Shown here in pieces: positions 2,114 to 40,468 of a stretch of 64,000 nt of DNA. Position numbers and translations under genes: made by a program. A model generated the notes under the pieces. It did no database searches. It had not been told where the DNA came from and was given only the letters and a program-made list of their open reading frames with translations. Every line of letters starts with the position of its first letter. Position 1 is the first letter of the stretch. The stretch covers positions 186,001-250,000 of the forward strand of contig NZ_LAZS01000004.1 in assembly GCF_002007205.1 (NCBI RefSeq). Direction: 5' to 3'. The DNA comes from Ensifer adhaerens (GTDB lineage Bacteria > Pseudomonadota > Alphaproteobacteria > Rhizobiales > Rhizobiaceae).

Positions 2114-2216
2114 CTACAGCGCCGCGCGTCCTTATAGGGCGCGCCAGGCTCGCTGTAACATTTTGGCCCGCCGCATGATGTTTGTCCTCAGATCGATCCC
2201 GATTTAAGGAATCATG
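2114..2216 (-). repeat. RIME-like two-hairpin repeat, copy 1
   Basis: Read on the minus strand it begins CATGATTCCTTAAATCG, has a first imperfect palindrome, and ends with a second palindrome running from TTACAGCG through GACGCGCGGCGCTGTAG. The same layout and many of the same bases occur at 31891-31991 and 38022-38122 on the plus strand. It resembles the roughly 100-bp rhizobial intergenic mosaic (RIME) elements. It lies in the divergent region between moxR and the DUF1285 gene. Confidence 0.75.
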
Positions 2217-2348
2217 CGGTGGCTGGGATTTCAGTCGCCAAAATCCAATTTAGACCCTGCCGGACGGCTGACAAGTCGGCGCCGACGCACTATCTCGTGA
2301 GATATCAAAGGTCTCGATCTGAAAATCGGGACCAAACGGGACGGAACA

Positions 2349-31876: not shown

Positions 31877-31890
31877 ACCGTGCGCTATGG

Positions 31891-31991
31891 CATGTATCCT
31901 TAGATCGTTGCCGATTTAAGGATAAGAATAAGCAGCAACTCAAAGTGCTACAGCGACCGTTGCGCGTCCGATAAGACGCGCGGCGCTGTAG
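31891..31991 (+). repeat. RIME-like two-hairpin repeat, copy 2
   Basis: It runs from CATGTATCCTTAGATCG to GACGCGCGGCGCTGTAG with a stem-loop at each end. The second hairpin is CTACAGCGACCGTTGCGCGT with GATAA in the loop. It matches the copy at 38022-38122 closely and that at 2114-2216 in reverse. It sits between the TRAP operon and the facing midA gene, at the right edge of the TRAP block. Confidence 0.85.
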
Positions 31992-36597: not shown

Positions 36598-37557
36598 ATG
36601 GATCGACAGGAAGCCATGGCGGTGTTTCTCGCCGTCGTCGAGGAGGGGGACTTCTCGGCGGCGGCGCGGCGGCTGCGCATGACGCCATCGGCGGTCAGCA
36701 AGATCGTCGGCCGGCTGGAGGCGCGCCTTGGCGTGCGCCTGCTGCAGCGCACGACGCGCAGTATCAGCCTGACGAGCGAAGGCAGCGCCTATGCGGAATC
36801 CACCCGCCGCATCCTCGGCGACATCGAGGACGCGGAGATTGCGATCCAGCCGGACGCCGTGCCACGCGGGCGGCTGCGGGTGAGCCTGCCCAGTGCCTTC
36901 GGTCATCGCCTGATCGTGCCGATGCTGCCTGGTTTCATCGAGCGGTTTCCGCAGATCGATCTGGAACTCGATTTCAGCGACGCCATCGTCGACCTCTTGA
37001 ACGGCGACGCCGATGTCGCGATACGGGTCGCGGCGCAAAGCGATAGCACGCTGGTGACACGGCGCCTGGCATCGAACCGCCGCGTCATCTGTGCGGCGCC
37101 TGCCTATCTCGAACGGCACGGCGCTCCGCAAACCCCTGATGACCTGCAACGGCATGTCTGCCTGGCTATCACCGCGCGCGGCCGCCTGAACGTGTGGGAG
37201 TTTGAGGATGGCGACGGCCGGCGTGCGATCCGTGTGCGGGGTTCCGTCGAGGCCAACAGCACCGAAGCGCTCAGGCGGCTTGCGCTTGCGGGCATCGGGA
37301 TCGTGCGGCTCTCGGAAATTCTGGTGGGCGAAGATATCAGGGCGGGCTGGCTGGTACCGCTTCTGACCGACTGCAACTATGCCGAGGCGGAACCGATCAC
37401 GGTTGTCTATCCGCACCGGCGCTTCCTGCCGCCGCGGGTGCGGGTCTTCGTCGACTTTCTTGCCGAGCAGTTCTCCCGTCGCTCGTGGGAAGAGGCCAGA
37501 TTTCGCGGGGAGCCCGCGGAGGCCGGCGCGCTTCCGGAATCTCGTCCGATGCTTTAA
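36598..37557 (+). CDS. LysR-family transcriptional regulator
   Basis: A 319-residue regulator. The winged helix-turn-helix is AVFLAVVEEGDFSAAARRLR then MTPSAVSKIVGRLEARLGVR at residues 8-48, followed by the effector domain (GRLRVSLPSAFGHRLIVPML). The end VVYPHRRFLPPRVRVFVDFL is the usual LysR close. Targets and ligand are unknown; no divergent partner is clear. Confidence 0.92.
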   Translation: MDRQEAMAVFLAVVEEGDFSAAARRLRMTPSAVSKIVGRLEARLGVRLLQRTTRSISLTSEGSAYAESTRRILGDIEDAEIAIQPDAVPRGRLRVSLPSAFGHRLIVPMLPGFIERFPQIDLELDFSDAIVDLLNGDADVAIRVAAQSDSTLVTRRLASNRRVICAAPAYLERHGAPQTPDDLQRHVCLAITARGRLNVWEFEDGDGRRAIRVRGSVEANSTEALRRLALAGIGIVRLSEILVGEDIRAGWLVPLLTDCNYAEAEPITVVYPHRRFLPPRVRVFVDFLAEQFSRRSWEEARFRGEPAEAGALPESRPML

Positions 37558-37595
37558 GTCCGGCGGCGGAGAACTTTTGATGCAAAGGGCTTGTA

Positions 37596-37937
37596 ATGGC
37601 GGAAACGATTGAATTTGCTGATTTTGAGCGCGTAGACATTCGTGTGGGGACCGTCGTCGAGGCCGAGCCTTTTCCGGAAGCGCGCAAGCCGGCCTTCAAG
37701 CTGAAAATCGATTTCGGGCCTGAGATCGGCATAAAAAGGTCATCAGCTCAAATCACGGTGCATTATCGTCCGGAGGATCTCGTCGGGCGGCAGGTGCTGG
37801 GCGTGGTCAATTTTCCGCCGCGCCAGATCGGGCCTGTGCGCTCCGAAGTGCTGACGCTGGGCTTTGCAGACGAGGCCGGTGCGATCGTGCTGGCTGCCAC
37901 CGAACGGCCGGTCCCCAACGGCAAGAAGCTGATGTGA
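37596..37937 (+). CDS. csaA: CsaA-like tRNA-binding domain protein
   Basis: A 113-residue single-domain protein: FERVDIRVGTVVEAEPFPEA, FKLKIDFGPEIGIKRSSAQI and GVVNFPPRQIGPVRSEVLTL. This is the tRNA-binding OB-fold of CsaA/Arc1p type, described as an export-related chaperone. The broken phosphatase gene starts four bases after its stop. Confidence 0.92.
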   Translation: MAETIEFADFERVDIRVGTVVEAEPFPEARKPAFKLKIDFGPEIGIKRSSAQITVHYRPEDLVGRQVLGVVNFPPRQIGPVRSEVLTLGFADEAGAIVLAATERPVPNGKKLM

Positions 37938-37941
37938 TCTG

Positions 37942-38518
37942 ATGACCATTGCAATCGAAGCGATCCCCGAGCGCGTCAAGGTGTCCTGCCTTTGGCGCGC
38001 CGCCGATGCGGCGCGCGACTGCATGTTTCCTTTAATCGTCGCCGATTAAAGGGCGAAAACATGCAGGAATTATAAGTTCTACAGCGACCTTTGCGCGTCT
38101 GATAAGACGCGCGGCGCTGTAGTGCGCAAGCCATGTGCTGTCCCTGCTCGATTCGGAACTGCCGGATACCAACGTGCCTGTCATTGCCGAGGCGAGCCAC
38201 CGGGTTGTGCGCATGCGCGACCAGGAAAACCCGACCGCCCGGCAGCATTTCCCGGATCTGGTGCTCGAGGTGTTCGAGGCGATGCGGCCTGCGGCGGAGC
38301 ATGCGGAGAGCCGCATTCTCGTGCATTGCCACGCCGGCGTCAGCCGCTCGACGGCCTTTGCCTATGGTCTGATTGCGCATCAGCTCGGCGCGGGGCGAGA
38401 GGACGAGGCTTTCCGGGCGCTGCTGACAATAACGCGCAAGCCCTGGCCGAACCGCCGCATCGATGCCTGGCACCGTTTCAACGAGTGGCGCGGCCTGACC
38501 TCGATCTACCAGCGCTAA
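37942..38518 (+). pseudogene. Dual-specificity/tyrosine phosphatase-like gene interrupted by a repeat
   Basis: The first part, MTIAIEAIPERVKVSCLWRA then ADAARDC, runs to 38022, where a 100-bp RIME-like element begins. After it the same protein continues ASHVLSLLDSELPDTNVPVI to ILVHCHAGVSRSTAFAYGLI, whose HC-x(4)-GxSRS loop is the phosphatase active site. The element carries stops and shifts the frame, and a TGC occurs on both sides of it, as if duplicated. A GTG at 38135 could still start a 127-residue truncated protein containing the catalytic loop. The ATG is four bases after csaA. Confidence 0.75.
38022..38122 (+). repeat. RIME-like two-hairpin repeat, copy 3, inside the phosphatase gene
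   Basis: From CATGTTTCCTTTAATCG to GACGCGCGGCGCTGTAG. First hairpin: CCTTTAATCGTCGCCGATTAAAGG; second: CTACAGCGACCTTTGCGCGT...GCGCGGCGCTGTAG. TGC at 38020-38022 and 38123-38125 flanks it. Near-identical to the copy at 31891 in its right half. Confidence 0.85.
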
Positions 38519-38524
38519 CGGGGC

Positions 38525-39028
38525 TCAGTTCTCCGACAGCAGCGTCTCGGCATACCGCTTGAGCGAGCGGTTGTAGCGGGGAAGGTGGCGCGACAGGCTG
38601 CCGAGCGTGAGTGCTGCCGCCTGTTGCGCCTGGCCGGTATCGACGAGGCAGAGCGCCAGGAAGGCGACGACCGCATCGTCGAGTTCGTCCGATGGCTTGT
38701 CCCGCTCGGCGGTGAGCAGGGCGACGCCTTCTTCGGCGCGGCCGAGATTGCGCAGGGTGCTCGCGAGCTGGATCGTGGCGCGCCGGCGGCGAATTCCCTG
38801 AAGGCCGCTTTCCAGCGCTTGCCGGTAGAGCAGCTCTGCCTTTGCTTCATTGCCGGTCGAATCCTGCGCCGAGGCTCTCTCGAACAGCCCGACGGCATGT
38901 CCGACCGGCAGTTCGCCGGCAAGCGCCTCGATGCGGGCGATGAAGGTTTCGGTATCCGTCGCGTCGAAGGTTGCCCAGAGTTCGGCCACCCATCGTTCCC
39001 AATCAGCCCAATCGATGGCGTCTGTCAT
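38525..39028 (-). CDS. Tetratricopeptide-repeat protein
   Basis: A 167-residue helical protein. Repeats of the TPR type are visible: AVGLFERASAQDSTGNEAKA, ELLYRQALESGLQGIRRRRA, QLASTLRNLGRAEEGVALL. GGAGAG precedes the ATG. No enzymatic domain; likely a protein-interaction scaffold of unknown partner. It converges with the phosphatase remnant six bases away and is downstream of the histidine kinase. Confidence 0.85.
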   Translation of the reverse strand: MTDAIDWADWERWVAELWATFDATDTETFIARIEALAGELPVGHAVGLFERASAQDSTGNEAKAELLYRQALESGLQGIRRRRATIQLASTLRNLGRAEEGVALLTAERDKPSDELDDAVVAFLALCLVDTGQAQQAAALTLGSLSRHLPRYNRSLKRYAETLLSEN

Positions 39029-39085
39029 GGCCCACTCTCCTCAGCCCCCGTGCGCCGCGAGCAGTGGCCGGTCCGGGCGGGAACG

Positions 39086-40468
39086 TCAAGCCGGTACGCG
39101 CACCGTTGCCCTCAAGCCCCCGAGCGGGCTGTCGCCAAGCGTGACGTTGCCGCCGTGGCTGCGGGCGATGTCGCGGGCGATCGCCAGCCCAAGGCCGGTG
39201 CCGGAGCTGTCGAGGTTGCGGGCCTCGTCGAGGCGGAAGAACGGCTTGAACACATCTTCGCGCGAACGTTCGGGAATGCCCGGACCGTCATCGTCGACGG
39301 TGATCGTCAGCCACTTGGCACTGTGGCGCGCATCGATCTTGACGGTGTTGGCGTAGCGGTAGGCGTTGGAGGCGATATTGGCGACGAGACGGGTGAAGGC
39401 GTTCGGGCGCACGCGAACCTCGTCCTCGCCCTCGATGGAGGTGGTGAGCGTCTTGCCGCGCAGCTCCGCTTCCGTCGCAAGCCGGGCCATGAGGTCGCTG
39501 AGCTTGAGCTGGCCGACATCCTCCTCCGCCTCGCTACGGGCAAAGGCCAGATAGCCTTCCAGCATGTTCTGCATGTCCTCGACGTCCTGGTTCAGGCCTT
39601 CGAGGTCGGGGTTGTTGCCGGCGAGCGCCAGTTGCAGCTTGAATCGGGTGAGGATGGTTCGAAGGTCGTGGCTGACGCCGGTCAGCATTGCGGTGCGCTG
39701 CTCGATCTGGCGCTCGATGCGCTCGCGCATCTGGATGAAGGCGAGGCCGGCGCGGCGGATTTCGTCGGCGCCACGGGGTGCGAAGTCGTCGATCTTCTGG
39801 CCCTTGCCGAAGCTTTCGGCCGCCTTGGTCAGGGCCAGGATCGGGCGGATCTGGCCACGCAGGAACAGGACCGCGATCGTGAGCAGCACCAGCGATGCAG
39901 CGACCATCCAGACGAGGAAGATGTGGGTGTTCGATGCATAGGCCTGGTTGCGCCGTGCATAGACGCGCAGGATGCGGCCATCATCGAGCTTGATGCGGAT
40001 CTCGACGAGCTTGGAGTTGCCGACCGTATCGATCCAGAAGGGGCGGCGGACCTGGTTGGAAATCTCTTCGCCGAGGATCTGGTCGAGGATTTCGAAGAAG
40101 GGGCTGGGGCGCGGCGGCGGCAGTTCTCCGGGCGGATCCACGGAGATGCTGAGATCGAGCTGTTCGCGGGCGATGCGAATGATCTCGGAGATGTCACGGT
40201 CGGCGGGGAAAGTGTCGATGAGATCGACGATCGCCGCGATGTCGCCGGTGACAGCGGCCGACAGGCGCTGCGTCACCAGCTGCCAGTGGCGCTCCATGAA
40301 GATGAAGGCGACAACCGACTGCAGGAGCACCATGGGAATGATGACGATCAGCAGCGAGCGGGCATAAAGCCCCATGGGCAGGCGACGGCGCAGCCAGCGG
40401 GTGAAACGCCTCCAGGCGTTGTCGTTCGCCCCTGTCGTTCCTTGTTCTATGCCGTCAAAGCTTGCCAT
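39086..40468 (-). CDS. Sensor histidine kinase, EnvZ type
   Basis: A 460-residue membrane kinase: first membrane segment near 38-58, a periplasmic domain of about 125 residues, second segment (IFLVWMVAASLVLLTIAVLF), HAMP, then the H-box GVSHDLRTILTRFKLQLALA with the phosphorylated His, N-box RLVANIASNAYRYA, and ATP lid DDDGPGIPERSREDVFKPFF with GTGLGLAIARDIA. It should phosphorylate the response regulator encoded 31 bases upstream. The signal is unknown. Confidence 0.93.
   Translation of the reverse strand: MASFDGIEQGTTGANDNAWRRFTRWLRRRLPMGLYARSLLIVIIPMVLLQSVVAFIFMERHWQLVTQRLSAAVTGDIAAIVDLIDTFPADRDISEIIRIAREQLDLSISVDPPGELPPPRPSPFFEILDQILGEEISNQVRRPFWIDTVGNSKLVEIRIKLDDGRILRVYARRNQAYASNTHIFLVWMVAASLVLLTIAVLFLRGQIRPILALTKAAESFGKGQKIDDFAPRGADEIRRAGLAFIQMRERIERQIEQRTAMLTGVSHDLRTILTRFKLQLALAGNNPDLEGLNQDVEDMQNMLEGYLAFARSEAEEDVGQLKLSDLMARLATEAELRGKTLTTSIEGEDEVRVRPNAFTRLVANIASNAYRYANTVKIDARHSAKWLTITVDDDGPGIPERSREDVFKPFFRLDEARNLDSSGTGLGLAIARDIARSHGGNVTLGDSPLGGLRATVRVPA

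Follow-up and report, generated by a model that had tools for sequence, protein, structure and literature searches.

Whether a gene that contains a hairpin-forming repeat has been broken by it or is simply shorter than expected is the question raised by a locus in the window, the whole stretch of 64,000 nucleotides analysed here, which belongs to a 6.87-Mb genome assembled in 22 contigs, with Ensifer as the closest named relatives. A previous reading made from the sequence alone (the sequence-only reading) had described a phosphatase gene starting 4 bases after csaA, a RIME-like two-hairpin repeat within it, and the rest of the phosphatase in another frame behind the repeat. This arrangement is confirmed here (Table 1). 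The csaA stop codon (TGA, 37935-37937) is separated by 4 bases from the ATG of the phosphatase (37942), and the csaA product scored 158.2 bits with the NCBIfam profile TIGR02222 (chap_CsaA, cut-off 119.65) and 196.3 bits with NF007495 (cut-off 117). Translation from this ATG enters the element at codon 26-27 and ends at a TAA (38047-38049), yielding a peptide of 35 residues. With RNA parameters, both hairpins of the element together gave -54.8 kcal/mol. Since the ACTG at the left edge of the repeat is common to host and element, the left border is ambiguous.

Table 1. Features of the csaA-phosphatase locus (positions in the window) and RIME copies at polymorphic sites of S. meliloti pSymB.
Feature	Position	Strand	Basis
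csaA-type tRNA-binding protein/chaperone gene, upstream, intact	37596..37937	+	NCBIfam profiles
Start of the phosphatase gene (5' remnant), codons 1-26	37942..38020	+	reading frame and alignment to relatives
RIME-like two-hairpin repeat, 105 bases	38018..38122	+	genome copies, alignment of relatives, folding
Hairpin 1 of the element	38019..38066	+	folding
Hairpin 2 of the element	38079..38122	+	folding
Downstream part of the phosphatase gene (3' remnant), in a different frame; possible starts are all late (GTG 38135 and ATG 38213, for example)	38123..38518	+	reading frame and alignment
Active-site loop codons HCHAGVSRS, intact	38324..38350	+	read from the sequence; phosphatase profile matches
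CGCCGCATC, sole repeat remaining at the 87-base in-frame deletion	38453..38461	+	alignment with G009
RIME copies at two polymorphic S. meliloti pSymB sites	W01:C1:1263479; W02:C1:1234911, 1243667; W04:C1:1167777; W05:C1:459980, 468735		

None of the 15 other genomes of the genus carries the repeat at this locus, and in all of them the gene is open; the alignment, which includes substitutions, is free of gaps on both sides of the element border. All 21 named loci retrieved by protein encode an uninterrupted product of 185-187 residues; 18 of them carry the label Ensifer or Sinorhizobium, and the others are Rhizobium, Pararhizobium and 'Rhizobiales bacterium', one each. Ten of these loci were taken as genomes already in the set of 15, and about 26 distinct genomes are represented overall. 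Nor do these relatives start at the GTG that follows the repeat in the window: all 21 have an in-frame ATG 87-93 bases upstream of the codon matching GTG 38135 (where two or three ATGs were possible, the one nearest 90 bases upstream was chosen). The two conditions under which the sequence-only reading would have fallen, a repeat present in every relative or a start behind it, were thus checked and do not apply. In an alignment of 20 homologues (the named loci except L091), the invariant residues V14, C16, L17, A20, A24 and W27 fall in the N-terminal part that is cut off. Because the site is empty and the protein uninterrupted in the relatives, and because the lost part holds invariant residues, the repeat is, by sequence comparison, an insertion that disrupts the phosphatase gene, as the sequence-only reading had maintained, and the gene is not simply shorter. 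It is true that draft assemblies like this one can misjoin repeats. However, an assembly or sequencing artefact is extremely improbable at a place that has some 29 kb of sequence or more on either side within a 253-kb contig, with flanks that run without gaps against the relatives and a repeat whose sequence is its own (the best other copy among those scored is 93% identical).

The comparison also corrected the details of the junction. With respect to the 15 relatives, the net gain at the phosphatase site is 100 bases, against 103 in six other clean cases (see below), and three bases seem to have been lost at the left border. The protein predicted for the empty state, in which ARDC was joined directly to ASHV, was one residue short: the relatives read ARDWRASHV (14 of 15) or AREWRASHV (one), that is, two residues (WR) before ASHV. 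As to the TGC noted on both sides of the repeat, it is there (38020-38022 and 38123-38125), but its left copy corresponds to the element consensus, as the left end of most copies is CTACTGCATG or close to it, and does not represent one half of a duplication. TGC was discarded as a target-site duplication on these grounds.

The intact homologue matched the Y_phosphatase profile with 21.6 bits, just above the cut-off (20.9), and DSPc with 25.2 bits, under the cut-off (33.5); no NCBIfam match was obtained for the host phosphatase. The Root278 homologue was modelled with AlphaFold (pLDDT 85.5, pTM 0.85); DUSP19, MKP5 and slingshot 2 were the best Foldseek matches, with a probability of 1.00 and a TM by query of about 0.5. 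The loop HCx2GxSRS and the predicted fold of a dual-specificity-like protein phosphatase are present in the intact relatives, and such a phosphatase is the predicted product of the host gene. In the window the loop is intact, as previously noted, although the pattern given for it, HC-x(4)-GxSRS, was wrong and HCHAGVSRS should be read as HC-x2-G-x-SRS. The downstream part is not otherwise whole, and a second lesion, which the sequence-only reading had missed, lies there: 87 bases (29 codons, in frame) that are kept in all 15 relatives are missing at 38452|38453. In G009 there are two copies of CGCCGCATC exactly 87 bases apart where the window has one, and in G001 the first copy differs at one base. 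The single copy left in the window is what a deletion between short direct repeats, here of 9 bases, usually leaves. According to the model, residues 1-31, which are lost by the insertion, hold a strand (12-15) and a helix (20-27), and the 29 deleted residues hold most or all of helix 138-147 together with helix 155-164.

These data bear on whether the gene could be shortened and yet alive, as a phosphatase of 127 residues translated from GTG 38135 with its active-site loop preserved. The frame 38135-38518 is indeed open, and at 27.6 bits for DSPc (cut-off 33.5) and 22.6 bits for Y_phosphatase (cut-off 20.9) it scores slightly above the intact homologue. Moreover, the dN/dS of the retained part is low, with 0.065-0.139 against nine relatives (0.065-0.118 against G001, G009, G010 and G003) and 0.040-0.084 among relatives in seven pairs. 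On the other hand, such an enzyme would have neither the first strand and helix nor the 29 residues with their two helices, and those regions hold many residues that are invariant in the 20 homologues. Furthermore, we saw by eye no convincing ribosome-binding site before GTG 38135 or ATG 38213, and the upstream frame stops about 85 bases before that GTG, inside the hairpin element. Two residues private to the window stand at positions occupied by P and T in 15 out of 15 relatives. The window has three private base changes at sites where the 15 others all agree, and each of the three alters a residue, compared with 9 of 16 such changes in eight relatives, numbers that are too small to weigh. 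A living short enzyme is accordingly an improbable alternative. The low dN/dS makes no loss of constraint visible and is at most compatible with a recent event. Either the inactivation is recent or the remnant is still constrained; with two lesions present, a recent inactivation is the simpler of the two. Because both lesions take away parts of the predicted fold, and because few extra changes have accumulated, the phosphatase locus is very probably a recent pseudogene.

RIME elements are about 100-110 bases long and contain two large palindromes, and the repeat described here, which may be of the RIME1 subtype, has about 105 bases, two hairpins and dozens of copies in Rhizobium, Sinorhizobium and Ensifer. 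The window's genome carries it in at least 41 distinct places, the phosphatase included (40 of 145 candidates were scored; of 44 rows, three were inverted matches inside places already counted). With 40 candidates scored in each, G001 yielded at least 31 matches and G003 at least 42, partial and inverted ones included. A plasmid collection contained 437 matching records, 436 of them named for Rhizobiaceae genera (Rhizobium 254, Sinorhizobium 159, Ensifer 19, Agrobacterium 2, Pararhizobium 1 and Allorhizobium 1, the remaining one being Nitratireductor); the distribution refers to plasmids and to genomes of this genus only. No Rfam family reached its gathering score on 36900-39600; the two weak overlaps with the element were far below it, namely BASRCI27 with 19 bits against a gathering score of 59.8 and mir-4520 with 19.2 bits against 90. 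The window has two more copies, at 31890-31991 (+ strand) and 2114-2220 (- strand), respectively 87% and 75% identical to the consensus, and on contig G000:C18 two copies in opposite orientation, 219221-219294 (-) and 219457-219561 (+), lie about 160 bases apart. The Rhizobium-specific intergenic mosaic element (RIME) was reported by Osteras et al. in 1995, as cited in PMC2573895 and PMC2245857, and excerpts of the former describe intergenic repeats of unknown function. Both distribution and anatomy fit RIME, to which the repeat is likened by description and not by the published RIME1 sequence. The phosphatase copy differs in that it sits within a coding region. Two codon-usage surveys of intragenic copies were too weak in power for a count. 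The first flagged 3 of 69 and missed the known phosphatase case. In the second, the threshold was exceeded by 5 of 48 copies, compared with 73% of true gene positions and 2.7% of mismatched flanks, and the positive control, for which an incorrect joint of the window had been used, failed again.

We then compared filled and empty sites elsewhere. At six loci between species (L040, L043, L045, L047, L048 and L162), four bases in the empty state, seen in at least one relative each, correspond to a unit of 107 bases in the filled one, which is the net gain of 103 mentioned above. Other between-species copies gave no clean junction (L039, L042, L044, L046, L050, L052, L056, L057, L131, L161 and L166) or a partly clean one only (L041, L054 and L164), and L163 was filled in several relatives. 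Within S. meliloti, two sites of pSymB about 9 kb apart were polymorphic among five strains: at site A, FSM-MA and GR4 have the repeat and 1021, B399 and SM11 do not; at site B, SM11 alone lacks it, and 1021, FSM-MA, B399 and GR4 have it. In both cases the empty version is CTAG and nothing else. The 20 bases that follow on the right do not differ, the 20 on the left show at most two differences, and the joined 300-base flanks are 89-96% identical. Both sites thus fit the structure C-TA-[101 bases]-TA-G, that is, a TA duplication in CTAG, and this suggests that the RIME-like repeat may be a miniature element that targets TA, as RUP does. The empty sites in S. meliloti, at least the one that is empty in SM11 alone, could also be precise losses. 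There are 10 CTAG in the window, compared with 215 expected from base composition and 65 from a Markov estimate, and a chance agreement on CTAG at both pSymB sites is very unlikely if this tetranucleotide is equally rare in S. meliloti. In the parts of the literature covered by our search, to which the founding 1995 paper does not belong, we found no description of a RIME target site.

Between species the pattern was less uniform. For 4 of 11 loci, at least one relative had an empty site with TA at its centre (6 of 34 rows, versus a background of 123 of 4046 positions, 3.0%), and L045 would be a fifth such locus by another alignment. At 7 of the 11, including the clean L040, L043, L047 and L162, no relative had such a TA, and at L043 and L047 up to three of the four bases would have to differ. 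At the phosphatase site, all 15 relatives have a TGG with no TA (CTGG in ten, TTGG in four and ATGG in one). Three readings are conceivable for the sites that lack TA: a change of the target before or after the element arrived, a requirement for TA that is not strict, or outer bases that the element brings along. One possibility for the phosphatase gene, which we consider less probable than not, is that the tryptophan codon first mutated to an amber codon, creating a CTAG that the element then used in an already dead gene. The right border would agree with this, since the element ends there in the TAG that a CTAG target would leave, and so would the exact CTAG of both S. meliloti empty sites. 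However, the TA may be element-borne, since, among 48 copies, 33 carry it at their right end, 27 at their left end and 20 at both, and since relatives have no TA at several loci; in addition, no intermediate allele was seen, and the three-base loss at the left border must be assumed too.

As to the machinery, the repeat could be regarded as similar to REPs and dependent on their associated transposase (Y1, RAYT), with CTAC...GTAG ends, hairpins and no duplication. Many copies do end in CTAC...GTAG, and a gain of 103 bases would agree with an insertion without duplication; GTAG is a tag of REPs and CT a cleavage site of TnpA-REP in the excerpts of PMC3733652 and PMC8266576. Nevertheless, a search for the Y1_Tnp domain that was positive in 5 of 14 control genomes was negative in all 16 genomes of the genus. 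The GTAG lies 3' of a hairpin in the repeat and 5' of the palindrome in REPs, and both polymorphic pSymB sites fit a TA duplication. Mobilisation by REP/RAYT is hence quite unlikely, and it was rejected on account of the absence of Y1_Tnp from these 16 genomes.

The best working analogue for a TA-targeting element of this kind would be RUP of Streptococcus pneumoniae, presented in excerpts of PMC2229807 as a 107-base unit with TA ends that inserts at TA and for which mobilisation by IS630-Spn1 was proposed. The repeat resembles it in being a miniature element of similar size, and it would share with RUP the TA at both ends and the insertion at TA. It differs from RUP in that, by eye, it has no clear terminal inverted repeats and in that none of the 10 DDE_3 loci described next provided an insertion sequence whose ends match. 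The IS630/Tc1-mariner elements likewise use and duplicate a TA target, as reported for ISY100 (PMC2170065, in part), and the title of Tenzen and Ohtsubo 1991, cited there, names a preference for TA in CTAG. DDE_3 (IS630-type) proteins were detected in three S. meliloti pSymB records (3, 3 and 1) and in G001 (2), the window's own genome has one weak fragment, and G003 has none. One of the 10 DDE_3 loci from the three genomes and three pSymB records displayed TA-flanked terminal repeats under the settings used. This is L293, a 1,053-base DDE_3 element at about 310-311 kb of pSymB in S. meliloti 1021, which is bordered by CTAG on both sides and whose terminal repeats match at 16 of 20 positions. 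Its CTAG context recalls the two polymorphic pSymB sites of the repeat, but its ends match those of the repeat at no more than a few bases. With up to two mismatches allowed, the left-end pattern of the repeat was absent from the 10 IS630-type loci, and its short right-end pattern gave 28 scattered matches that seem to be chance ones. An IS630-type partner with matching ends was rejected among these 10 loci, which differ at the ends.

The surroundings of the copies provided a further lead. From 100 loci, 68 copies were near full-length with enough flank, and 48 remained after removing alike flanks; the phosphatase site is outside these 48. Inverted arms of at least 8 bases flank 4 of the 48, versus 0.23 expected from mismatched flanks (p about 0.0001), and arms of at least 6 bases flank 8, versus 3.2 expected (p 0.011); these figures come from one of five settings, and p for the latter ranged to 0.04. 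Copies between inverted repeats include L040, L051 and L071. Of six shifted control cuts, the one moved leftwards by 30 bases found arms of at least 6 in 4 copies and of at least 7 in 3, against 6 and 3 copies for the true cut at the same settings; the other five gave 0-2 copies. A duplex-energy version with 31 copies yielded p values of 0.066, 0.024, 0.11 and 0.41 for flanks of 20, 25, 30 and 40 bases, respectively, and ranked the phosphatase site mid-range. Insertion into hairpin loops is suggestive only, a lead rather than a result, as the copies are few, the outcome depends on the setting and one control is close.

Considering all these data, we believe, with a probability of roughly 0.8, that the locus is best explained as a whole by a RIME-type insertion, a resulting pseudogene and TA/CTAG mobility, an explanation that is in part observed and in part deduced. 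A RIME-type miniature element has entered codon 26-27 of the phosphatase gene after csaA, shifting its frame and introducing a stop, and a separate deletion of 87 bases has taken 29 codons further down, so that presumably no functional phosphatase is made. As a non-autonomous DNA element of about 101 bases, the repeat would enter TA within CTAG and duplicate the TA, in the manner of RUP in S. pneumoniae, with the reaction supplied by a transposase acting in trans. Its usual intergenic position would follow from the near-absence of CTAG in genes: only 4 of the 10 CTAG in the window are inside ORFs, although 52 mechanical ORFs cover 89% of it, and if CTAG is preferred, RIME may be kept out of genes because this target is rare and mostly outside ORFs. 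At L054, compared with the empty relatives L211 and L212, the GTAG or CTAG at the insertion point seems to hold the TAG stop of the upstream gene; the element supplies a TAA there and, judging the frame by eye, the upstream gene would retain a stop. A wider proposal, which we advance very tentatively and regard as rather doubtful, is that RIME would be a CTAG-targeting, TA-duplicating element that is intergenic through target supply, to which genes would open through an amber codon after C and which would mark freshly dead genes instead of killing living ones, the phosphatase being one such case.

Palindromic repeats inside genes are already known in other bacteria, including the Rickettsia palindromic elements and intragenic REPs (excerpts of PMC10969869, PMC2229807 and PMC3733652). 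The Rickettsia elements are often in frame and tolerated in these descriptions, whereas the phosphatase copy breaks the frame, in a gene that lost a further stretch. In this context, the present case is a well-documented and fairly ordinary gene-breaking event, and what it adds is a clean empty site, a second lesion and the CTAG lead. The clean insertion and the empty site in 15 relatives show that the repeat family has been mobile inside one genus, and the empty sites with CTAG in S. meliloti provide a concrete and testable rule for the targets of RIME and for its rarity in genes.
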